Both the position numbers and the translations under genes were made by a program. DNA of 64,000 nucleotides from Pseudohalocynthiibacter aestuariivivens (GTDB lineage: Bacteria > Pseudomonadota > Alphaproteobacteria > Rhodobacterales > Rhodobacteraceae), in assembly GCF_011040495.1 (NCBI RefSeq), contig NZ_CP049037.1:806001-870000 (forward strand), written 5' to 3'. Under the pieces are notes generated by a model that saw nothing but the letters and a program-made list of their open reading frames with translations, had not been told where the DNA came from and ran no database searches. This document shows, piece after piece, positions 52,771 to 64,000 of this stretch. Position 1 is the stretch's first letter. Every line of letters begins with the position of its first letter.

Positions 52771-53166
52771 TCAGTCCGCAGTCTCGACCGGACCGCCATC
52801 CTTGATCCAGCCAGAGAACCCATCCTTCAGGTGCGCCGCGTCAAAGCCCATGTCCTGCAACATCGCCACGGTCAGCGCCGACCGCCAGCCAGAGGCGCAG
52901 TGGAACACATACCGCTTGCCGTCTTGGGCAAAGACGTCCTTGTGATACGGGCTGTCCGGATCGACCCAAAATTCGATCATTCCGCGCGGGGCATGGACGC
53001 TGCCGGGGATATATCCGCTGCGCTGACGTTCACGCACATCGCGAATATCGACGATCACGACATCCGCAGCCGCATGTGTCGCGATCAGCTCATCTGTCTC
53101 GATTTCGTCAATCCGCGCGCGGGCGGCTTCAACCATCTCTGCGGCGGTTGTCCTGAGTTTTTGCAT
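52771..53166 (-). CDS. Rhodanese-like domain protein
   Basis: 131 residues, one rhodanese domain: VVIVDIRDVRERQRSGYIPG and the active-site loop CASGWR with the catalytic Cys (VFHCASGWRSA). ATG at 53166 has AAGGAG six bases upstream; in-frame ATGs at 53172 and 53184 are less well placed. A cytoplasmic sulfurtransferase of unknown acceptor. Divergent from the FAD oxidoreductase. Confidence 0.83.
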   Translation of the reverse strand: MQKLRTTAAEMVEAARARIDEIETDELIATHAAADVVIVDIRDVRERQRSGYIPGSVHAPRGMIEFWVDPDSPYHKDVFAQDGKRYVFHCASGWRSALTVAMLQDMGFDAAHLKDGFSGWIKDGGPVETAD

Positions 53167-53256
53167 GGGCATCTCCTTTGACACTCACAGAGCGTGACAT
53201 GCCCCGAAATCTGGTGCAACCATCCCGATATAACCCGCAACACAGGATCGTCTGCC

Positions 53257-54528
53257 TTGACCGTCGCCGCGCCCCCCTCTCTTTGGAACGCTTCCACCAA
53301 GGAACCCGATATCGTTGACCAGCCTGATGGCGATACCACCACAGAACTGGCAATTGTCGGCGGCGGCTTTACCGGGCTGTCCGCCGCCCTGCATGCCGCC
53401 GAGGCCGGAATGGCCTGTCATGTGCTGGAGGCACAAGCGATCGGTTATGGCGGATCGGGTCGCAATGTCGGGCTGGTGAACGCCGGCCTATGGCTGCCGC
53501 CGCAGGTCTGTCGTGCCAAGCTGGGCGATGCGATCGGGTCCCGTCTGGTGCATCTGCTGGGCAATGCACCGGATATGGTGTTCGACCTGATCCAACGCCA
53601 TCAGATGCAATGCGAAGCAACCCGCGCTGGCACGATCCACGCCGCACGCACCTCCGGCGGCATGACCGACCTGCGCGCCCGCGCCGATGAATGGCAACGC
53701 CTCGGCGCGCCGGTGCAACTGCTGTCGCGCGATGAGGCGGCCGAACGGATCGGCACGCAGGCACTGCATGGCGGGCTATATGATGCACGCGCGGGCACCA
53801 TTAATCCGGTTGGCTACGTACGCGGGCTGGCCCGCGCCGCGCGCAGCGCCGGCGCCGTAATCCGCACCGGAACCCCGGTTCAGAACCTTCGCCGTGACAA
53901 CGGCCGCTGGCGGTTGCAGACGTCTACCGGCACGCTGCACGCGCGCCACGTTCTGCTTTGTACCAACGGCTATAGCGACGGCCTCTGGCCCGAACTTCGG
54001 CGATGCTTCACCCCCATCCATTACTTTCAGCTCACCACCGCACCCATGGGGTCGCAGGCGGCGCATATCCTGCCCAACGGCGAGGGTATGTGGGACACCG
54101 GCACGATTATGTTTTCTCTTCGACGTGACGTCGAAGGGCGCATCTGCGTGGGCTCAATGGGGTCCGTGATCGGTGGCACAGAGGGGCTGTCACACCGCTG
54201 GGCCACACGCCAAATCAGGCGGCTCTTTCCCGAACTGGGCAAGGTCCGTTTCGAAACCGCGTGGCACGGGCGTATCGCCATCACGCCAGACCATCTGCCG
54301 CGCATCTATCAACTTGCCGAAAACCTATATGCCCCAACCGGTTACAATGGCCGAGGGATCGGGCCGGGCACTGTGTTCGGCGCCGGGCTGGCCGCCGCGT
54401 TGACAGGGGGCGGACCCGACGCGCTTCCATTGCCACTGACATCGCTGCAAAAGGTGCCCCTGCGTAAGCTCAAGCAAGCCGCGCTTGAGGTCGCATTTAC
54501 CGCAAATCAACTTTTCCGCAGCCTGTGA
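53257..54528 (+). CDS. FAD-dependent oxidoreductase (DadA/glycine-oxidase-like)
   Basis: 423 residues. Dinucleotide-binding motif IVGGGFTGLSAALHAAEAG near residue 34, then the DAO-type C-terminal fold (HYFQLTTAPMGS, APTGYNGRGIGPG with an FAD-binding Gly-rich end). It oxidises an amine or D-/N-methyl amino acid. The start is uncertain: TTG at 53257 has AGGA upstream and fits homologous lengths; the in-frame ATG at 53194 adds 21 residues. Confidence 0.8.
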   Translation: MTVAAPPSLWNASTKEPDIVDQPDGDTTTELAIVGGGFTGLSAALHAAEAGMACHVLEAQAIGYGGSGRNVGLVNAGLWLPPQVCRAKLGDAIGSRLVHLLGNAPDMVFDLIQRHQMQCEATRAGTIHAARTSGGMTDLRARADEWQRLGAPVQLLSRDEAAERIGTQALHGGLYDARAGTINPVGYVRGLARAARSAGAVIRTGTPVQNLRRDNGRWRLQTSTGTLHARHVLLCTNGYSDGLWPELRRCFTPIHYFQLTTAPMGSQAAHILPNGEGMWDTGTIMFSLRRDVEGRICVGSMGSVIGGTEGLSHRWATRQIRRLFPELGKVRFETAWHGRIAITPDHLPRIYQLAENLYAPTGYNGRGIGPGTVFGAGLAAALTGGGPDALPLPLTSLQKVPLRKLKQAALEVAFTANQLFRSL

Positions 54529-54664
54529 AACAACCTGACATACAGGCATTTATGCGCTGTTGTTATTCCCGATCCTATTGGCGTAAGGTGGTAAAGCCCG
54601 AACGAACAGGACCGCGCTAAACCGCGACGGCGGGCGACGCGAACGCGCTAGGAGAGCCTATTTT
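54529..54664 (+). promoter_or_regulatory. Leader and promoter region of the four-gene operon
   Basis: 136 bp between the FAD oxidoreductase stop and the nitrilase-like start. It should carry the operon promoter, but I see no convincing -35/-10 pair; TTGTTA near 54559 is only a weak candidate. AGGAG lies about eight bases before the ATG at 54665. Confidence 0.3.
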
Positions 54665-55693
54665 ATGACGCCATTTGCCGTTGCAGGCGTACAGATGTAC
54701 GTAAATGCATTACAACCAAACGTGGATGGAATGATCCACCGGCTTGATGTGCTTATGGCCCGCTTCCCCTGGACACAGATGGTTCTGTTTTCAGAACTTG
54801 CGCCATTTGGCCCGCTGACCAAGTTTTCTCTGCCACTGCTCAACGAGACGATTGATCGTTTTCGCGAGGCGGCAATCAAACACAATATCTGGCTGATCCC
54901 CGGTTCGATGTTCGAGACCGCCGAAGACGGACGCATCTACAACACCTCGACCGTGATCAATCCGGCTGGCGAAATCATCGCCAACTACCGCAAGATGTTT
55001 CCTTTCCGCCCCTACGAGGCGGGCGTTGAGGCGGGCACCGGTTTCTGCGTCTTTGACGTGCCTGATGTGGGCCGCTTTGGCCTGTCGATCTGCTATGATA
55101 TCTGGTTCCCCGAAACCACCCGACAGCTGACGTCTCAGGGCGTCGAGGTGCTGCTGCACCCGGTTTTGACCGGCACCACCGACCGCGACGCGGAGCTCAG
55201 CATCGCGCGTGCGACCGCCGCACAGTTCCAGTGTTACGTGGTCGATGTGAACGGTCTGGGCGCGGGCGGCGTGGGTAAATCCTGCGTCATTGACCCCTCT
55301 GCCACGGTGCTGCACCAATCGGCCGGCCAAGAGGACATGTTCCCGATTGAGATGGATCTGGATCATGTGCGCCGCCAACGTGAGGCGGGCATGAAAGGAC
55401 TGGGTCAGGTGCTCAAGAGTTTCCGCGACCGATCGGTTGATTTCTCGGTCTATGACCGCGCCAGCGGCACCGATGCTTATCTGCATTCGCTCGGCGCTCT
55501 GGAAATCCCCAAACAGGGCTCACGCGCAGGACTTCGCAGTGAGGAACCAAACGTGGCCGAACAGCGTTCAGATGTTGAACTGGCAAGCGCGACCGAAGTG
55601 TTCAAAGGGGCACTGATCGCGCCAAATGCAATGGCCGAGGCAAACGAACAACCAAAAAGCGACGAGAGGGAGGCAGCGCCCTACACCGTCTGA
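54665..55693 (+). CDS. Nitrilase-superfamily amidase (carbon-nitrogen hydrolase)
   Basis: 342 residues with the Glu-Lys-Cys triad: E44 (FSELAPFG), K110 (NYRKMFPF) and C143 (SICYDIWFPE). The CN-hydrolase fold covers residues ~5-270. The last ~60 residues are acidic, low-complexity and unusual for the family. Substrates may be amides, N-carbamoyl amines or nitriles. First of a four-gene operon with a decarboxylase, an ATP-grasp ligase and an Ntn-hydrolase; N-carbamoylputrescine-type chemistry is an inference from the decarboxylase. Confidence 0.85.
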   Translation: MTPFAVAGVQMYVNALQPNVDGMIHRLDVLMARFPWTQMVLFSELAPFGPLTKFSLPLLNETIDRFREAAIKHNIWLIPGSMFETAEDGRIYNTSTVINPAGEIIANYRKMFPFRPYEAGVEAGTGFCVFDVPDVGRFGLSICYDIWFPETTRQLTSQGVEVLLHPVLTGTTDRDAELSIARATAAQFQCYVVDVNGLGAGGVGKSCVIDPSATVLHQSAGQEDMFPIEMDLDHVRRQREAGMKGLGQVLKSFRDRSVDFSVYDRASGTDAYLHSLGALEIPKQGSRAGLRSEEPNVAEQRSDVELASATEVFKGALIAPNAMAEANEQPKSDEREAAPYTV

Positions 55694-55706
55694 CACAAAA
55701 AAAATA

Positions 55707-55761
55707 GCGGCCGATCATCGACTGCCTGTACCATAATCTAGTGCATTTTAGATCGGTCGCA
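55707..55761 (+). other. Imperfect inverted repeat before the decarboxylase gene
   Basis: GCGGCCGAT (from 55707) can pair with ATCGGTCGC (ending 55761) with one G-U pair, enclosing about 37 bases in the 88-bp gap between the amidase and decarboxylase genes. It might temper read-through within the operon. Weak evidence. Confidence 0.25.
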
Positions 55762-55781
55762 TAACAGCGGGGACTAAATCT

Positions 55782-58541
55782 ATGCAATCAATGGGTGACT
55801 ATTATTCTGCCGTCCAGTTGCGCTCGGACAGGTGGAGCCAGTTACGCGAGGCCGCCGATGCCCTGTCGCGCGCACCAGAGGGGCGAAATGCCAAGGCCAA
55901 TCTGGAAAAAATCACCGAGCTTTTCGATTCTCTCTCCCTGATCGAAGCTTACTGGGCCTTTCCCGGGGTTCAGGCCTTTGACACGCTGCGCCGCCATTTC
56001 GACCACCGAAATTTTGCCGATCTCGCGTTTTCCGTGCAGCGTATTACGCGCGCTCTGACAACCGGCGCGTACCGTCGGCGCCACATTCCACTTGATCGTG
56101 ACAGTTCTGATCTGGACGAGCACGAAGATGAGGCAATCCAGTCGTTAGAGGCCCGCGCCCTCAGCAAACCCTACTTCGAAGTGATGATCGTCGACAATCT
56201 GAACGAACATCAGGAACGCTGGATGAAGTCCAACTTTGCCCAGATGCGGCGGCCCGAAGACCAGTTTCACTATGAGACCGTGGTTGTTCCCAGCCTTCAG
56301 GATGCGCTGATCGGTATCCTCTTCAACCACAATATTCAGGCCATCGTTGTCCGACCCGGTCTGATACTGGAATCAAAGGTCGAATTGGCAATCCTGACCC
56401 GGTATCTGAACCGCGCGGGTGGGCTGGAGGCGCTCGAAAATCTAGAGCCGCAGAACTACGGCCCGGAACTCTGTCGGATGATCGCAAAGGTCCGTCCCGA
56501 ACTCGACGCCTACCTGATCACCGAACGATCAGTCGAGGACATCGCCGGGCTGGATTTGGGGATCTGTCGCCGGGTGTTCTATAACCAAGAAGATTTCCTT
56601 GAACTGCACCTGAACATCCTGCGCGGCGTGCAATCACGCTACAACACGCCCTTTTTCACAGCACTTGTGGAATACTCCAAGCAACCGACCGGCGTTTTTC
56701 ACGCGATGCCGATCAGCCGCGGCAAATCCATCTCGCGCTCGCATTGGATTCAGGACATGGGGGCGTTCTACGGCCCCAACATTTTCCTTGCCGAAACGTC
56801 GGCAACGTCCGGCGGGTTGGACAGCCTGCTGGAACCGCACGGCCCCATCAAAGAGGCACAGCGGCTGGCCAGCCGTGCCTTTGGTTCGAAACAGACCTAT
56901 TTCGCTACCAACGGCACCTCGACCTGCAACAAGATCGTCGTCCAAGCCCTTGTCAGGCCGGGGGATATCGTCCTGATCGACCGCGATTGTCACAAGTCAC
57001 ACCACTACGGCATGGTGCTGGCTGGCGCGCAGGTCTGTTACCTCGACAGCTATCCGCTGAATGAATATTCCATGTATGGCGCGGTTCCCCTGCGCGAGAT
57101 CAAGCACCAGCTTTTGGCGCTCAAGGCGGCAGGCAAGCTGGATCGCGTGCGGATGCTGTTGCTGACCAACTGCACCTTTGATGGCATCGTCTACAATGTC
57201 GAACGGATGATGGAGGAATGTCTGGCGATCAAACCAGACCTGATCTTCCTGTGGGACGAGGCATGGTTTGCCTTTGCCCGGTTCGGCCCCACCTACCGGC
57301 AACGCACCGGCATGAACGCAGCCAATACCCTGCGCGAACGCCTGCGCAGTGATGCGCATGCCGCCGCCTACGCGGAACAACAGGCCAAGCTGAAAGACGC
57401 AGATGATGAGACCCTGCTCGATACCCGGCTCATTCCACCACCCAATGCACGCGTGCGCGTCTATGCTACCCAGTCGACACACAAGACGCTGACTTCGTTG
57501 CGCCAAGGGTCGATGATCCACGTCAACGATCAGGACTTCAAAGGCGAGGTCGAGGCATCGTTCCACGAAGCATACATGACCCACACATCCACCTCACCCA
57601 ACTACCAGATCATCGCATCGCTGGATGTCGGCCGTAGGCAGGTAGAGCTGGAAGGTTTCGAATTTGTCCAGCGGCAGGTCGAGGCGGCCATGTCGATGCG
57701 GCGGGCGATTTCCACCCACCCGCTGCTGAAAAAGTACTTCAAGGTGCTGACCGCAGGCGACATGATTCCAGAGACCCATCGCGAAAGCGGGGTCCAAAGC
57801 TATTACGATCCCGAACAAGGCTGGACCGATATCTGGGATTGCTGGGAAAAAGACGAATTCGTGCTGGATGCAACGCGCGTCACGCTCGCTGTCGGTGGCA
57901 CAGGCTGGGATGGCGACACGTTCAAGACCGAAATCTTGATGGATAAATACGGCATCCAGATCAACAAGACGTCGCGCAACACAGTCCTCTTCATGACCAA
58001 TATCGGCACCACGCGCAGTTCGGTCGCCTATCTGATCGAAGTGCTGGTCGAGATTGCCAAGGAGCTGGATGATCTGATCGACGACGCATCGATGATGGAA
58101 CGGCGCGGGTTTGAAAAACGCGTGGCGAACCTGATGGACGACCTGCCGCCCCTGCCCGACTTCAGCCGTTTCCACGACGCGTTCCGCACCGATGATGTAA
58201 CGTCAGAGGGCGACATCCGCTCGGCGTTCTTTCTATCCTACGATGAACGCAACTGTGACTATCTGGAACTGAACGGCTCGCTCAAGGAGGCAATGGAAAG
58301 TGGCGAAGAGGTCGTATCGGCCTCGTTCATCATCCCCTACCCGCCCGGCTTTCCAATCTTGGTCCCCGGACAGGTCGTCAGCGAAGGCATCCTTGCGTTC
58401 ATGCGCGCATTGGATGTCAGCGAAATCCACGGCTACCGGCCCGATCTGGGATTGCGCGTCTTTGCCAAGGACGCATTGAAACAGCAGATCAAGACCAACG
58501 CAGCACGGCTCAAGCTGAACGTGCAACGACAGAAAACATAA
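55782..58541 (+). CDS. Orn/Lys/Arg decarboxylase-like PLP enzyme
   Basis: 919 residues. N-terminal ~270 residues resemble the wing/CheY-like region of biodegradative decarboxylases. The PLP domain has ATNGTSTCNKIVVQALVRPG, the Asp of the PLP-binding loop in LWDEAWFAF, and Schiff-base K568 in STHKTLTSLRQGSMIH. A C-terminal domain follows (PYPPGFPILVPGQ). The family decarboxylates arginine, ornithine or lysine to an amine. It is longer than ordinary inducible decarboxylases (~750) and probably an outlier member. Second gene of the operon. Confidence 0.82.
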   Translation: MQSMGDYYSAVQLRSDRWSQLREAADALSRAPEGRNAKANLEKITELFDSLSLIEAYWAFPGVQAFDTLRRHFDHRNFADLAFSVQRITRALTTGAYRRRHIPLDRDSSDLDEHEDEAIQSLEARALSKPYFEVMIVDNLNEHQERWMKSNFAQMRRPEDQFHYETVVVPSLQDALIGILFNHNIQAIVVRPGLILESKVELAILTRYLNRAGGLEALENLEPQNYGPELCRMIAKVRPELDAYLITERSVEDIAGLDLGICRRVFYNQEDFLELHLNILRGVQSRYNTPFFTALVEYSKQPTGVFHAMPISRGKSISRSHWIQDMGAFYGPNIFLAETSATSGGLDSLLEPHGPIKEAQRLASRAFGSKQTYFATNGTSTCNKIVVQALVRPGDIVLIDRDCHKSHHYGMVLAGAQVCYLDSYPLNEYSMYGAVPLREIKHQLLALKAAGKLDRVRMLLLTNCTFDGIVYNVERMMEECLAIKPDLIFLWDEAWFAFARFGPTYRQRTGMNAANTLRERLRSDAHAAAYAEQQAKLKDADDETLLDTRLIPPPNARVRVYATQSTHKTLTSLRQGSMIHVNDQDFKGEVEASFHEAYMTHTSTSPNYQIIASLDVGRRQVELEGFEFVQRQVEAAMSMRRAISTHPLLKKYFKVLTAGDMIPETHRESGVQSYYDPEQGWTDIWDCWEKDEFVLDATRVTLAVGGTGWDGDTFKTEILMDKYGIQINKTSRNTVLFMTNIGTTRSSVAYLIEVLVEIAKELDDLIDDASMMERRGFEKRVANLMDDLPPLPDFSRFHDAFRTDDVTSEGDIRSAFFLSYDERNCDYLELNGSLKEAMESGEEVVSASFIIPYPPGFPILVPGQVVSEGILAFMRALDVSEIHGYRPDLGLRVFAKDALKQQIKTNAARLKLNVQRQKT

Positions 58542-58587
58542 TAAGAAACTGATAAAAACAGAAAATACGTCCAAGGGAGAACGACAA

Positions 58588-60072
58588 ATGGCCAAAAAGG
58601 CAGAACCCAAAAGCAAATCGGCTGACCTGAAGAACATCTCGGAAATCCGCCGCCATTTTCACCGCAACGAAGACCCGATCTATTTCATCTCGGCCACCAA
58701 TTTTAACCTTCTGGGGCTGGACGAATGGTGCAAGAATTTCAAATATATCTGCTATATCGACTGCTACGGCGGCAAACACCCGAACGTGTTCTGCCCGTCC
58801 GAGCAGCCACATGCCGAATTCCAGTCGATCGAAGATATCAACAACTATCTCTTGCAGCACAAAGAGGTCATCGACCTGATCAAGCGCCGCGGCGGCAAGC
58901 CCAAGTTCGTGTTCCTGATGTTCGACGAGGAAACCGAACGCCTGTCCAAGGAACTTGGCGCCGACGTCTGGTTCCCCAAGGCCAAACTGCGTACCGCGAT
59001 GGACAACAAGATCGAGACTGTCCGCATCGGCAACAAGGCCGGCGTGCCGTCGGTCCCGAACACCCTGTCCGAGGTCAAATCCTACGACCACTTGCGTGAG
59101 GTTTGCGAAAAGGCCGGTATCGGTCACGATCTGGTTCTGCAATCGGCCTTTGGTGACAGCGGGCACACCACGTTCTTTATCAAATCCGAGGCCGACTTCC
59201 GCCGTCACGAGCATGAGATCATCGGCGAGGGCGAGATCAAGATCATGAAGCGGATCGATTGCCGCGGCTCTGCGATCGAAGCCTGCGCCACCAAGGAAGG
59301 CACCATCGTCGGCCCGCTCATGACAGAACTGGTGGGGTTCAAAGAACTGACCCCCTATCGCGGCGGCTGGTGCGGAAACGAGATTTTCAGCACCGCCTTC
59401 CCGCCCAAGGTCCGCCAGAAAGCTCGCGATCTGACGTTCAAATTCGGTGAGCAACTGCGCAAAGAGGGCTATCGCGGCTATTTCGAGCTGGATTTCCTGA
59501 TCGACAAGAAAACCGGCGATATCTGGCTGGGCGAATTGAATCCACGCATCACCGGTGCCAGTTCAATGACCAACCACGCGGCTTTTGCCCATGCTGACGC
59601 GCCGCTCTTCCTCTTCCACCTTCTTGAGTTTTCCAAGAAGAAATTCGATCTTGATGTCGAGGAACTGAATGCCCGCTGGGCCGATCCCAAAATGATCGAC
59701 GGCTGGAGCCAGATGGTCATCAAGCATACCGACGATACCGTTGATATTGCCACCGAAGTTCCCGAAACCGGTATTTACCGGATGAAAGAGGACGGCAGCA
59801 TCGACTTCAACCGCTTTGATTATCACCGGCGCGCGGTAGAAAACGAGAACGAGGCATTCTTCCTGCGTATCCTGCAACCGGGCGATTATCGCTACGAGGG
59901 TGCCGATATCGGCATTCTGGTAACGCGCGGGCGCTCGATGACGCCGGGCTTCCAGCTTAACGAACGCGGAAAACGCTGGATTCACGGGATCAAGCAAGGC
60001 GTTTCAGCCCGGCCCATGCCCACCGCCGAGGCGGGTCCGGCACTGGCCGACCCTGCCTTTAAGATCATGTAG
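58588..60072 (+). CDS. ATP-grasp ligase (biotin-carboxylase-like)
   Basis: 494 residues with an ATP-grasp fold: KLRTAMDNKIETVRIGNKAG, the Gly-rich loop in QSAFGDSGHTTFF, and the Mg/ATP motif E316-x-N318-x-R320 (GELNPRITGASS). No biotin-carrier domain. Such stand-alone ligases join a carboxylate to an amine or thiol using ATP. It starts 46 bp after the decarboxylase; a decarboxylation product is a natural partner. The precise ligation cannot be read from sequence. Confidence 0.78.
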   Translation: MAKKAEPKSKSADLKNISEIRRHFHRNEDPIYFISATNFNLLGLDEWCKNFKYICYIDCYGGKHPNVFCPSEQPHAEFQSIEDINNYLLQHKEVIDLIKRRGGKPKFVFLMFDEETERLSKELGADVWFPKAKLRTAMDNKIETVRIGNKAGVPSVPNTLSEVKSYDHLREVCEKAGIGHDLVLQSAFGDSGHTTFFIKSEADFRRHEHEIIGEGEIKIMKRIDCRGSAIEACATKEGTIVGPLMTELVGFKELTPYRGGWCGNEIFSTAFPPKVRQKARDLTFKFGEQLRKEGYRGYFELDFLIDKKTGDIWLGELNPRITGASSMTNHAAFAHADAPLFLFHLLEFSKKKFDLDVEELNARWADPKMIDGWSQMVIKHTDDTVDIATEVPETGIYRMKEDGSIDFNRFDYHRRAVENENEAFFLRILQPGDYRYEGADIGILVTRGRSMTPGFQLNERGKRWIHGIKQGVSARPMPTAEAGPALADPAFKIM

Positions 60073-60094
60073 ACGAAAGGCAGGCTCACGCCGT

Positions 60095-61084
60095 ATGCAA
60101 CTGAACTGGCGCGCCATTTCCGAGGATGAACCCGGCCCCAAGTGGGCCGGGCTTTTCCATGAGTACTGGCCCGATTATCACCGTTGGTGGGCACGTGAGG
60201 GCCCCGAAGCGCGCCCCGGCTTTCTGGACAGTCACAAGGCATTGCGCGCGCATATGCCCGAACTTCTGCCGCTCTATGACCAACTTTGCGAATTGGCAGG
60301 CGGCACCGATCATGCCGCACGCTTCCTCAGCTTTTATTGCCCGCCGCCATATCTCTCATCTTGCTCACAGGCGATCTGGCCCGGCGAAGAACCGGTGATG
60401 GTGCGCAATTACGACTACTCGCCAAAGGCGTTCGACAGCCTGACCCTGCGGACCAAATGGCAGGGGCGCACGGTCATGGGCACGTCGGACGGGCTTTGGG
60501 GGCTGGTTGACGGGATCAACGACGCGGGCCTCGCAGTGTCGCTGACCTTTGGCGGACGACGTGTGGTCGGCGACGGGTTCGGCGTGCCGCTGATCCTGCG
60601 TTATGTGCTGCAAACCTGCGAAACGGCTGCCGAAGCGGGCAAGGTGCTGGCACGTATCCCCACCCACATGAGCTACAATGTCACCGTCGTTGATGCACAG
60701 CGGCGCTATCTGACGGCGCTGATGGCCCCTGATCGCAAGACGGTCATCACCCATCAGGCCGTCGCCACCAACCACCAAGAACGCGTCGAGTGGGCCAGTC
60801 ATGCGCGATTTACCGCCACAGTCGAACGCGAGCGGTTCCTGCTGCAACGGTTAACCCTGCACGTCGAACCGGAAGAGAAATTCATCAACGCTTTCCTGCG
60901 TCCGCCGCTTTATTCCACGCGCTTCGATCAGGGTTTCGGCACGCTCTATACTGCCGTCTATCGTCCTCAGCGCCTCCAGATGGAGCTACGATGGCCGCGT
61001 GCACGCTGGCCGTTCAATCTGAATGATTTTCACGAGGATCTGCGGCTGATCTATACCCCAGAGGGTCAAGCGCAGGACACCTGA
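60095..61084 (+). CDS. C45-family Ntn-hydrolase/acyltransferase
   Basis: 329 residues of the isopenicillin-N acyltransferase (C45) family. The likely autoprocessing nucleophile is C90 (PPYLSSCSQAIW) and the family motif MVRNYDYSP follows. C45 enzymes are made as precursors, cleaved before the Cys, and transfer or hydrolyse acyl groups on amides. No signal peptide is visible. Starts 22 bp after the ATP-grasp gene and ends the operon; its stop faces the GlxA-type regulator. Confidence 0.78.
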   Translation: MQLNWRAISEDEPGPKWAGLFHEYWPDYHRWWAREGPEARPGFLDSHKALRAHMPELLPLYDQLCELAGGTDHAARFLSFYCPPPYLSSCSQAIWPGEEPVMVRNYDYSPKAFDSLTLRTKWQGRTVMGTSDGLWGLVDGINDAGLAVSLTFGGRRVVGDGFGVPLILRYVLQTCETAAEAGKVLARIPTHMSYNVTVVDAQRRYLTALMAPDRKTVITHQAVATNHQERVEWASHARFTATVERERFLLQRLTLHVEPEEKFINAFLRPPLYSTRFDQGFGTLYTAVYRPQRLQMELRWPRARWPFNLNDFHEDLRLIYTPEGQAQDT

Positions 61085-61123
61085 CCACATCCCCCATCCG
61101 CGGCGCATCCGCAGCGGGCTTTC

Positions 61124-62125
61124 TCACCATCTTTTTCGAAATTTGCTGGGGGATATGTCGAATTTCCCCCGGAACACGCGCGCAAAAGCGGACGTGTCGC
61201 CAAATCCCGTCGCGGCGGCGATCTCGGAAATCGGCAGATCGGTTTCGGACAACAGCGCATAGCCCCTGCTCAACCGCAGATCGGCGTAATACTGCCTTGG
61301 GCTCTGCCGCGCGTGCTCGGCAAAGCTGCGCTCAAGTTGCCTCCGTGAAATGCCGATCTCCTTTGCGATGCGTTCCACCGTAAGCGGCTCTTCCAGATGG
61401 GTTTGCATGATGCGGATGGCAGCGATCAGGTTCTTGTTGCGACTACCCAGAATAGCAGATTGGGCGGTTTTTTGCGGCGCATGTTCAGAATGGCTGCGCC
61501 CGTGCAGACACATATCCGACACCACCAACGCAAATTCCGGTCCGAAATCGTCCTCGATCACGTTCAGCATCAGATCGGTCGACGCGCTGCCACCTGCCGC
61601 CGTCATCAGATCGCCGTCAATCTCGAACAGGTTCGGCGATGGCAAAAGGTCGGGAAATGTCTCCAGAAACGCGGGCTGGTTCTCCCAGTGCAGCGTAAAA
61701 GTGCGCCCGCGCAGCAACCCGGCCTTTGCCAGTGTAAACGCCCCGGTGCAGATCGCCCCGACCGCGACGCCATGCGCCGCCTGCCGTGCGGTCCATTGCA
61801 CCAGCCGCGTATTCATGGTTTCGGATGGCTCCACCCCGGCACACACAAAGACGCGCGTGCCGCGTGCGGCGTTGGCAATCGGCCCGTCCGGCACCAATTG
61901 CAGGTTGTTCGAGCAGCGGATTGGTGCCCCGTCAGTGGTCATTGTGCGCCACCGATAAAGCTCTTGCTGCGAAATCTGGTTGGCCACACGCAAAGGCTCA
62001 ATCGCGGCGCTCAGCGCCAGCATGGTCAGCTTGGGCAACAAAACGAAATCAAAATCGCGCGGGGTGTCCACCTTGGGAATCGTGAAACTGGCGGATCCCT
62101 TGGCAATATAGTCCGACTGCGACAC
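61124..62125 (-). CDS. GlxA-family AraC regulator (GbdR-like)
   Basis: 333 residues: N-terminal DJ-1/PfpI-like domain (FDFVLLPKLTMLALSAAIEP, VGAICTGAFTLAKAGLL) and C-terminal AraC helix-turn-helix (EPLTVERIAKEIGISRRQLE, SEIAAATGFGDTSAFARVF). This is the layout of GbdR, which controls glycine-betaine and dimethylglycine catabolism. GTG at 62125 follows GAGGAG at seven bases; the ATG at 62176 has none. Divergent from a dimethylglycine dehydrogenase-like gene, its probable target. Confidence 0.85.
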   Translation of the reverse strand: MSQSDYIAKGSASFTIPKVDTPRDFDFVLLPKLTMLALSAAIEPLRVANQISQQELYRWRTMTTDGAPIRCSNNLQLVPDGPIANAARGTRVFVCAGVEPSETMNTRLVQWTARQAAHGVAVGAICTGAFTLAKAGLLRGRTFTLHWENQPAFLETFPDLLPSPNLFEIDGDLMTAAGGSASTDLMLNVIEDDFGPEFALVVSDMCLHGRSHSEHAPQKTAQSAILGSRNKNLIAAIRIMQTHLEEPLTVERIAKEIGISRRQLERSFAEHARQSPRQYYADLRLSRGYALLSETDLPISEIAAATGFGDTSAFARVFRGKFDISPSKFRKRW

Positions 62126-62205
62126 CGCATGGCTCCTCAAGACGCATGACTTTCTCTGTATCATGCGGCAGCACACGGGCCTAGTCAGATTAGACGATGT
62201 TCAAA

Positions 62206-62225
62206 TCAACAAAATTCAACAAAAT
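62206..62225. repeat. Tandem direct repeat TCAACAAAAT x2
   Basis: Two exact adjacent 10-bp copies (62206-62215, 62216-62225) in the divergent gap of the GlxA-type regulator and the dehydrogenase. AraC-family proteins commonly bind direct repeats, so this is a strong candidate operator. Confidence 0.6.
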
Positions 62226-62255
62226 ATGTTGCATTTTGACCGTTATCTGCAACAT
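62226..62255. promoter_or_regulatory. Inverted repeat ATGTTGCA-N14-TGCAACAT
   Basis: A perfect 8-bp dyad (62226-62233, 62248-62255) directly after the tandem repeat and 26 bp before the dehydrogenase start, near its promoter. It may bind the GlxA-type regulator or a second factor. Confidence 0.5.
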
Positions 62256-62281
62256 TTCCGAAACCAACAAAGGGTAAGGGC

Positions 62282-64000
62282 ATGACGCAGCATTCGGCAA
62301 AACATCTGATCATCGGCGGTGGCATTATTGGGTGCAGCACCGCTTACCATCTCGCCAAACGCGGCGAACGCGACGTTATCCTGCTAGAACGCGCGGCCCT
62401 CACCGAAGGGGCAACATGGCATGCGGCTGGGCTGGTCGGGCAACTGCGATCGTCGCGCAACACCACCCGAATGCTGAAACGGTCTGTCGCGCTCTATGAC
62501 ACACTCGAGGCCGAAACCGGCATGGCCTTTGATTGGAAGAAGGTCGGCTCCCTCCGGCTGGCCGCCACCCGCGAACGGATGCTCGAGGCGCAGCGCCTGA
62601 CGACCATGGCCCAGAGCTTTGATCTGGAAATGCACATGATCACCCCCGCCGAGGCCAAAGATCTGTTCCCCTATATCGACGAGACAGGTATCGAGGGCGC
62701 TGCGTTCATTCCCTCGGACGGACATGTGGACCCAGCCAGCCTTTGCCAGGCGATCGCAGCGGGCGCGCGTCTGCACGGCGCGGACATCCGTCAAGGCGTC
62801 GAAGTCACGGATTTCGAGATCACCAATGGCCGCATCACCAAAGTGATGACCAGCCAAGGCGATTACGAGGCAGAGAACATCATTCTCGCCACCGGCATGT
62901 GGTCGCGCGAATTGGGCGCAAAGCTGGGCCTGCGCGTCCCCGCTTGTGCAGTCGAACACCAGTATGTCGTGACCGAACCCCTGCCCGACGCCGATCTGGT
63001 GCGCGGTCTGCCGTCGCTACGCGATCCCGAGCGGCTGGTTTACTACAAACCCGACGCAGGCGGGCGGATGGTGATCGGCGGCTACGAGGAAGGCACCCTG
63101 CCCTTTGGCGATCATGGCATCCCCGGCGCGTTCGTGCGTCAGCTTCTGCCAGATAACCTAGACCGTTTTGCACCGCTGGCCGAACTCGCCGGGCGCGTCA
63201 CCCCGGTCGTAAACGAGGTCGGCATCCGGCAGGTCATCAACGGCCCGATCCCCTATTCCGCCGATGGCGATTTCGTCATGGGCTGGGCCCCGGACTATAA
63301 AAACCTGATGATGGCCACCGGATTCCTCTACGGTATCGCCGCAGGTGGCGGTGCGGGCGAAATGATCGCCGAGTGGGTCACCGAAGGTCGGCCCAGTCTT
63401 GACCTCTGGCCGCTGGATGTACGCCGCTTTGGCCCGCATCACGGCACCCGCGCCTTTATGTATCCGCGCGCAGTCGAACATTACGCGCACCATTACAAGA
63501 TGCGCTACCCCGGAGCCGAAGCCGAAACAGCACGCGGCCTGCGACGCTCACCTTTCTATGACGCGCTCAAGGCACGCGGCGCTGTCTACGGCTCGAAAAA
63601 CGGCTGGGAACGCCCGCTGTGGTTCGCCCCCAAGGGAACACCCGCCGTAGATCAGCTCGATTTCCTCGATCCCGGCTGGCACACCTTCGCCGCCGAGGAA
63701 CACCGCGCAGTGCGCACAGGTGCGGCGCTGATAGATCAGAGCAGCTTTGCCAAGTTCGAAATGATCGGCCCCGGCACGCTCGACACGCTCCAGCGCCTCG
63801 CGGCCTGCAACATGGATAAACCCGTCGGATCCGTCATCTACGCACAGTTCTGCAACCCTCAGGGCGGGATCGAAGCAGACCTGACCATCACCCGTCTGGG
63901 AACCGACCATTTCTATATCGTCACCGGCGCTGGCTTTGGCACACATGATGCAGACTGGATCCGCCGTCATATGCCCGAAAACGGCACGGCCCAGTTGATC
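62282..64000 (+). CDS. Dimethylglycine/sarcosine dehydrogenase-like flavoprotein (3' end outside window)
   Basis: At least 573 residues, open at the right edge. N-terminal FAD motif IIGGGIIGCSTAYHLAK, and GATWHAAGLVGQLR, where the His of WHAAG carries covalent FAD in dimethylglycine dehydrogenase. The DAO fold runs to ~400. A GcvT-like folate-binding domain begins near residue 440 (GLRRSPFYDALKARGAVYG, RTGAALIDQSSFAKFEM). It would demethylate an N-methyl glycine and pass the one-carbon unit to tetrahydrofolate. The divergent GbdR-like regulator supports this substrate class. Confidence 0.85.
   Translation, partial: MTQHSAKHLIIGGGIIGCSTAYHLAKRGERDVILLERAALTEGATWHAAGLVGQLRSSRNTTRMLKRSVALYDTLEAETGMAFDWKKVGSLRLAATRERMLEAQRLTTMAQSFDLEMHMITPAEAKDLFPYIDETGIEGAAFIPSDGHVDPASLCQAIAAGARLHGADIRQGVEVTDFEITNGRITKVMTSQGDYEAENIILATGMWSRELGAKLGLRVPACAVEHQYVVTEPLPDADLVRGLPSLRDPERLVYYKPDAGGRMVIGGYEEGTLPFGDHGIPGAFVRQLLPDNLDRFAPLAELAGRVTPVVNEVGIRQVINGPIPYSADGDFVMGWAPDYKNLMMATGFLYGIAAGGGAGEMIAEWVTEGRPSLDLWPLDVRRFGPHHGTRAFMYPRAVEHYAHHYKMRYPGAEAETARGLRRSPFYDALKARGAVYGSKNGWERPLWFAPKGTPAVDQLDFLDPGWHTFAAEEHRAVRTGAALIDQSSFAKFEMIGPGTLDTLQRLAACNMDKPVGSVIYAQFCNPQGGIEADLTITRLGTDHFYIVTGAGFGTHDADWIRRHMPENGTAQLI

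Follow-up and report, generated by a model that had tools for sequence, protein, structure and literature searches.

The gamma-glutamyl-putrescine (Puu) pathway follows a ligate-process-hydrolyse logic, in which PuuA caps a diamine with a glutamyl group. Here, we analyze four consecutive genes in a 64,000-nucleotide stretch of the genome of Pseudohalocynthiibacter aestuariivivens (contig NZ_CP049037.1, positions 806,001 to 870,000; hereafter, the window), which encode a nitrilase-superfamily amidohydrolase (NIT), a long pyridoxal phosphate (PLP)-dependent decarboxylase (DC), an ATP-grasp ligase-like protein (GRASP) and a C45-type N-terminal nucleophile (Ntn) hydrolase (C45). This set appears to share the ligate-process-hydrolyse logic of the Puu pathway, and genes for GabT, a gamma-aminobutyrate (GABA) transaminase, and for PuuR-like regulators are found near some of its loci; it differs in having an ATP-grasp protein and C45 where the Puu pathway has PuuA and PuuD, and a flavin adenine dinucleotide (FAD)-dependent oxidase encoded in the window is not conserved, no search having been aimed at PuuB itself.

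A second described context is ectoine degradation. According to the available part of a report on Halomonas elongata (PMC3187862), the genes doeA-B-X-C-D-eutB-C are consecutive (Helo_3665-3659), and the route passes through N-acetyl-diaminobutyrate, diaminobutyrate and aspartate semialdehyde to yield aspartate. In a family of genomes, f74, which we call Halomonas-like on the basis of its doe gene order, the module lies within this same order, whereas the doe genes of H. elongata are uninterrupted and the module of the window does not adjoin doe genes. The fungal E-64 pathway (PMC12568646) is likewise independent of nonribosomal peptide synthetases, and the accessible portion of that report mentions ATP-grasp and PLP-dependent decarboxylase enzymes; it differs in being fungal and in beginning with fumarate epoxidation, and neither a nitrilase nor isopenicillin N acyltransferase is mentioned in that portion. 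Decarboxylase-antiporter pairs (AspD-AspT) are resembled by a sister clade of DC that adjoins genes for AspT-family antiporters, but the module DCs are flanked by a ligase and two amidases, and those module loci that were listed show no AspT-cluster gene.

The protein families concerned are known; their combination and its placement in the doe operon are undescribed in the open-access literature that we searched (most subscription papers lie outside that scope). An earlier note, made by a model from the nucleotides of the window, did not recognize the set as described. Four vaguely labelled genes become one testable pathway, with a specific prediction of the substrate for a group of decarboxylases that has solved structures but no assigned activity, and the findings suggest that the ectoine-degradation operon of the Halomonas-like family contains an extra, unrecognized branch. 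GRASP is not rare, 564 stretches encoding a relative having been found in named genomes, and the module also occurs on rhizobial plasmids.

A co-inherited four-gene module

All four genes lie on the forward strand, with intergenic gaps of 88, 46 and 22 bp in the coordinates of their open reading frames (ORFs). NIT (54665..55693, 342 aa, triad E44-K110-C143) matches Pfam CN_hydrolase at 3.3e-31; DC (55782..58541, 919 aa) is a long member of the OKR family of fold-type-I PLP decarboxylases (OKR_DC_1, 4.1e-75); GRASP (58588..60072, 494 aa) matches NCBIfam NF005096 (PRK06524) at 760 bits against a cut-off of 684; and C45 (60095..61084, 329 aa, nucleophile C90), of the C45 proenzyme or AAT family, matches NF040521 at 177 bits against a cut-off of 85 and Pfam AAT/C45 at 6.7e-33. 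The ORF coordinates and these profile matches bear out the genes, positions, gaps and family assignments given in the earlier note.

The members of this set travel together. Two phylum draws, of 398 genomes for the GRASP search and 396 for the DC search, were treated as one; GRASP exceeded 500 bits in 11 of the 398 and DC was found in 17 of the 396, the genome of the window being included in both counts. All 10 other GRASP loci carried DC and C45, and eight carried NIT (L156 has C45 and NIT in the opposite orientation), so that DC was present in 10/10 genomes with GRASP vs 6/385 others (Fisher test, 3.5e-16, phylogeny ignored). A class draw gave a GRASP match in 11 of 385 genomes; among the nine loci besides those of the window and of genome G141, DC and C45 were each present in seven, and the loci missing one or both were a contig end (L175), GRASP alone (L176) and a partial GRASP with C45 (L177). 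From the scan of named genomes, the best 80 of the 564 loci, in all of which GRASP was 83-95% identical to that of the window, were analyzed: 74 had the order NIT-DC-GRASP-C45, five had DC-GRASP-C45 and one had NIT-DC-GRASP at a contig end. Conserved loci extend to DCs with as little as 42% identity to that of the window, and two main gene orders occur, with DC placed last in families f74 and f78. In the loci that we fetched, genes were identified with a codon-score script of our own rather than with a gene finder. Within the genus, full-length GRASP was found in 13 of 36 genomes (that of the window included), one copy being only 43% identical, and one further copy was cut by a contig end; none was found in the 24 genomes outside the genus that were examined alongside. 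The co-occurrence across genomes that the earlier note named as a check was thus observed, and the phylum draw, the named loci and family f74 all speak for one gene unit, a metabolic module whose four members are inherited together.

In f74, GRASP was found in 27 of 101 genomes, and 26 of these 27 share the order doeA-doeB-doeX-[NIT-GRASP-C45-DC]-doeC-doeD, in many cases with eutB-eutC next; the remaining one (L183) has C45 and GRASP as a divergent pair that adjoins an amidase-like gene. Because the module sits between doeX and doeC, it is embedded in a known ectoine gene set. At locus L153, DoeA (TIGR02993), DoeB (TIGR02994), EutB and EhuR scored above their cut-offs, and DoeX (an Lrp regulator, 118 of 233 bits), DoeC (a dehydrogenase) and DoeD (a transaminase) were named by order and homology. 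The best DoeA match in the genome of the window (608.8 bits, cut-off 613) is located elsewhere in the genome. The genus itself gives no contrast with respect to ectoine, because DoeA was found in all 31 genomes tested, with or without GRASP. The main text of the paper on EutR regulons (PMC5320631) mentions neither nitrilase, C45 nor ATP-grasp, nor any of the COG numbers looked for.

Catalytic residues, folds and family membership

The catalytic residues named in the earlier note all occur in the proteins of the window and are kept in the homologues that we called. In NIT, E44 is found in 101 of 102 homologues (one gap) and K110 and C143 in all 102; the PLP lysine of DC, K568, which lies in the motif STHK, and the C45 nucleophile C90 are each found in 113/113; and E316, N318 and R320 of GRASP are each kept in 118/119. 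Judged by these residues, the active sites of all four enzymes are intact. The residue preceding the C45 nucleophile is Ser in the window and Gly in 96 of the 113 homologues.

The CN_hydrolase profile and the E-K-C triad place NIT in the nitrilase superfamily, and 10 NCBIfam models matched it, none reaching its cut-off (the best, formamidase, gave 73 of 406 bits). C45 is assigned to the C45 (AAT) Ntn-hydrolases by its family profile, its nucleophile Cys and a predicted fold like that of isopenicillin N acyltransferase: the AlphaFold2 model (mean predicted local distance difference test score, pLDDT, 85.8) had isopenicillin N acyltransferase 2x1c as its best fold match in the PDB (E 9.5e-12) and also matched acid ceramidase and NAAA. 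The AlphaFold2 model of GRASP was of unusably low quality (pLDDT 51.4); its alignment had 54 rows, in which the other sequences were 83-95% identical to that of the window. The label "biotin carboxylase" attached to GRASP is the name of model NF005096 and no more than that; the sole Pfam match of GRASP was a weak CPSase_L_D2 (E 0.028), with no biotin-carboxylase C-terminal or biotinyl domain, and with matches allowed up to E 1 Pfam did not give a biotinyl domain for NIT, DC, GRASP or C45. A biotin-dependent carboxylase was therefore rejected, there being neither a Biotin_carb_C domain nor a biotinyl carrier among the operon proteins.

Substrate of the decarboxylase

The accessible part of a study of LdcI (PMC5607190) suggests, on the basis of docking, that Glu526 binds the distal amine of the substrate. 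This residue aligns with N728 of DC, and the motifs VEKTG and PGE of lysine and arginine decarboxylases become INKTS and PGQ, the DC of the window carrying N728-K-T-S-R732-N and Q864. Among 113 homologues, N728 is found in all, R732 in 111 and Q864 in 110 (with two gaps and one E), and all three residues are also present in the six AspT-linked DCs of the phylum draw described below. DC belongs to PF01276 by its major-domain profile and PLP lysine, and has no acidic residue at the proposed distal-amine position. The comparison with known decarboxylase families that the earlier note called for gave no assignment: the six NCBIfam decarboxylase models that matched all fell well short of their cut-offs (at best 215 of 968 bits). 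We read the Asn in place of Glu526, together with R732, as a probable loss of basic specificity with the gain of a candidate carboxylate-binding Arg. The closest structures, PDB 9n0n and 9n0o ("Probable amino acid decarboxylase"), match over the full length (E 1.9e-254); 9N0O is listed as Rv2531c in PMC12910592, the available part of which describes the activity of this protein as unknown. Rv2531c (9n0n, 9n0o, 9n0p) has the INKTS and PGQ motifs in common with DC, but it has Ile at the position of R732.

Further evidence comes from DCs outside the module. In all six phylum-draw genomes with DC only, four of which belong to one genus, a gene of the AspT family lies 13-84 bp downstream on the same strand. 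The AspT next to DC at L216 scored above the NCBIfam cut-off for the aspartate-alanine antiporter, and L216 also has an aspartate 4-decarboxylase above cut-off; the neighbours at L212 and L217 reached 371 and 379 of 547 bits, with the duplication domain of the former above its own cut-off, and the remaining three were assigned by BLAST only. Fifteen plasmid matches at 47-49% identity had no GRASP match, and four of these were opened; among the six opened plasmid loci without an adjacent GRASP, four have an annotated aspT next to DC. Altogether, 12 loci in which DC has no GRASP beside it were inspected, and an AspT-family antiporter adjoins DC in 10 of them (L212-L217 and L162-L165, the exceptions being L161 and L166); a long OKR-type DC with an AspT-family antiporter is a candidate acid-resistance pair for acidic amino acids. 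Locus L162 also carries genes for HdeA/HdeB and aspartate 4-decarboxylase. An acidic substrate of DC is likelier because the Glu thought to contact the distal amine in LdcI is lost and most relatives outside the module are paired with AspT-type antiporters; for the same two reasons, amine formation from ornithine, lysine or arginine is not well supported.

Proposed pathway

We tentatively favor, at a little short of an even chance, a reading in which DC makes GABA or beta-alanine from Glu or Asp and feeds a ligase/amidase module, with the substrates and the order of steps deduced rather than observed. In the first step, DC would remove the alpha-carboxyl group of an acidic amino acid (Glu to GABA, or Asp to beta-alanine), and not act on ornithine, lysine or arginine. 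GRASP would then spend ATP to join the omega-amino acid through an amide bond to a second metabolite, and C45, the gene of which nearly always follows that of GRASP, would cleave or transacylate this amide, while NIT might hydrolyze a second one. A GABA/omega-amino-acid transaminase and a semialdehyde dehydrogenase could pass the carbon to central metabolism; several module genomes have genes for GabT and semialdehyde dehydrogenase, either next to the module or at another site. The amine-conjugate pathway suggested by the earlier note is in part retained, in that an amide made and later cut would fit the conserved GRASP and C45 pair (the latter with its predicted fold) within a co-occurring unit; amine formation from ornithine, lysine or arginine is the part with less support.

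Genome context is consistent with GABA. Searches in the genus covered 32 of the 36 genomes for PanD and GabT and 31 for DoeA; the genomes not included, G002 (which has GRASP), G017 (with the contig-cut GRASP), G018 and G033, are less complete or fragmentary. The cut-off of the GABA transaminase model TIGR00700 was exceeded in 11 of 12 genomes with GRASP vs 3 of 20 without (Fisher test, 2.9e-5, phylogeny ignored), and 6 of the 12 have GabT and GRASP on one contig, no more than 12 kb apart. PanD was uninformative: it was found in none of the 32 genus genomes searched, whether they had the module or not, and in 2 of 40 genomes in all. A divergent locus, L159, lacks DC but has GRASP, C45 and NIT, along with gabT and gabD above cut-offs and a PuuR-like regulator below its cut-off. 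In the best 80 of the 564 loci, raw counts of neighbours were 41 for GabT-like proteins, 38 for a TRAP permease, 37 for a TAXI binding protein, 22 for a PuuR-like XRE-cupin regulator and 21 for an FMN glutamate-synthase-like protein; a cluster such as "GabT-like" combines several paralogues, one of them DoeD. In Cupriavidus, a DctA/GltP-like symporter (below cut-offs) follows C45.

Several points weigh against the production of GABA or beta-alanine from an acidic amino acid. With regard to DC, Rv2531c keeps the N and Q yet has Ile in place of R732, and of the AspT neighbours tested by model, only that of L216 passes the equivalog cut-off. Two plasmid DCs without AspT suggest basic substrates, one lying 2.7 kb from an ectB-annotated diaminobutyrate transaminase in S. 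meliloti and the other about 7 kb from an arginase. A single clade (support 100/100) unites the AspT-linked DCs and is set apart by a long branch (1.28), so that the module DC may differ from them in substrate; the two AspT-less plasmid DCs fall among the rhizobial module DCs. With regard to GABA, GabT is unlinked to GRASP in 5 of the 12 genus genomes with GRASP, that of the window included, one such genome (G003) has no GabT, and the co-occurrence test takes no account of phylogeny. The Shinella plasmid and the plasmid labelled Roseateles carry GRASP-C45 without DC, and with NIT about 8 kb away, in an arginine/guanidino cluster that encodes an amino-acid racemase, a D-amino-acid dehydrogenase, a 5-guanidino-2-oxopentanoate decarboxylase and an agmatinase-family enzyme; such a cluster matches a known type of pathway that leads from arginine towards GABA. 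An agmatinase-family gene also lies upstream of the module in two f180 genomes. The proposed substrates of GRASP, moreover, are read from genome context.

A wider version of the acidic-substrate reading is possible, albeit speculative: a subfamily with the OKR fold may have switched to acidic amino acids and, in many proteobacteria, may supply GABA or beta-alanine to a GRASP/C45 pair that stores it reversibly as an unrecognized amide, by a carnosine-like logic, with ties to ectoine turnover and, in rhizobia, a location on symbiosis plasmids. Rv2531c might also have undergone this switch.

Alternative explanations

A polyamine product keeps some weight as a serious rival, since ectoine operons make diaminobutyrate and agmatinase-family genes accompany the module in the two f180 genomes and GRASP on two Shinella-type plasmids. 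In its explicit form, which we consider possible but somewhat doubtful, DC would make a diamine (1,3-diaminopropane from 2,4-diaminobutyrate, or agmatine or putrescine from arginine or ornithine), GRASP would cap it with an acyl or glutamyl group, a transaminase and an aldehyde dehydrogenase would oxidize it, and C45 would uncap the product to give beta-alanine or GABA. The position of the module in an operon of which diaminobutyrate is an intermediate, the lone DC near ectB on the S. meliloti plasmid and the agmatinase-family genes noted above all suit such a route, as do the adjoining PuuR-like regulators, which were clustered in 22 of the 80 loci, although the two such neighbours tested remained below cut-off (128.8 and 155.6 vs 211 bits). 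Additionally, according to the part of the report available (PMC10228743), diaminobutyrate suppresses the pantothenate auxotrophy of R. leguminosarum, which is read there as a route to beta-alanine. The operon intermediate, the ectB neighbour and this suppression are the reasons why the diamine route retains weight. It is opposed by the loss of the proposed distal-amine Glu and the gain of Arg in DC, by the AspT-type antiporters adjoining DC in 6/6 draw genomes, and by the FAD oxidase of the window, which is not conserved (weak matches in 3 of 87 loci, other amine oxidases not having been searched for).

It is improbable, in our estimation, that DC instead acts on the product of the ligase, such that GRASP would amidate a side chain, DC would decarboxylate the neutral conjugate, and C45 and NIT would cut the amide. 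The substitution of Asn and Gln for Glu in two motifs of DC would fit an amide side chain, and DC stands last in the f74 and f78 orders, but the same residues are kept in DCs that have no adjacent GRASP. A chance juxtaposition of four housekeeping enzymes with no relation to each other, for which the sporadic presence in the genus (13 full-length copies in 36 genomes) could be cited, is refuted by the genomic distribution, and we give it practically no credence: the neighbours are conserved in several families, in two main orders and with DCs as low as 42% identical to that of the window.

Flanking genes and minor observations

Upstream of the module, on the forward strand, lies a gene for an AmaA-like FAD amine or amino acid oxidase (53194..54528; NF050086, 445 of 600 bits, below cut-off), with matches of 28-30% identity in only 3 of 87 compared loci. 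Convergent to C45 is a gene for a GlxA/GbdR-like AraC regulator (61124..62176, reverse strand; GbdR model, 292 of 480 bits), which is found 3' of C45 at L039, L040 and L043 (75-78%) and at L004 (78%); its cluster is present in 5 of the 80 named loci and is retained only in the closest relatives. Being so poorly conserved, both genes were rejected as members of the module. Promoter and terminator scans were not above chance (2 vs 4.1 and 10 vs 9.4, respectively), and Rfam gave no match across 53000-62300.

Pieces of the C-terminus of GRASP (38%) and of NIT (54%) lie near an intact gabT at L160 (G009:C2:2639000-2658900) and L031, and are apparently a decayed second copy. At L172:9140-10759 and L173:8964-10784, the ATP-grasp ORFs have long Lys/Ala-rich N-terminal extensions, which could be real or could reflect a wrong start.

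Among the plasmids, NZ_CP084753.1 (L037, L161) is labelled Roseateles sp. XES5 (UNVERIFIED_ORG), has the GRASP gene order of the Shinella plasmid, and carries its DC some 550 kb from GRASP and about 7 kb from an arginase; its species label is probably wrong. Seven plasmids of S. medicae and one of S. meliloti carry only part of GRASP. On the rhizobial plasmids L034, L035, L036 and L168, DC-GRASP-C45 is followed by a peptide-type ABC transporter, with an amidase and an RpiR regulator annotated at L034 and L035; the fifth, L167, is without the transporter and has a shortened C45 region followed by transposases. The module was seen once beside nifHDKEN on a rhizobial plasmid (L211). Upstream of the module on a plasmid of a clover rhizobium (L035:1-3445) are genes for a Nif11-like leader peptide, a radical SAM epimerase and a C-methyltransferase, which make up a cluster for a ribosomally synthesized and post-translationally modified peptide.

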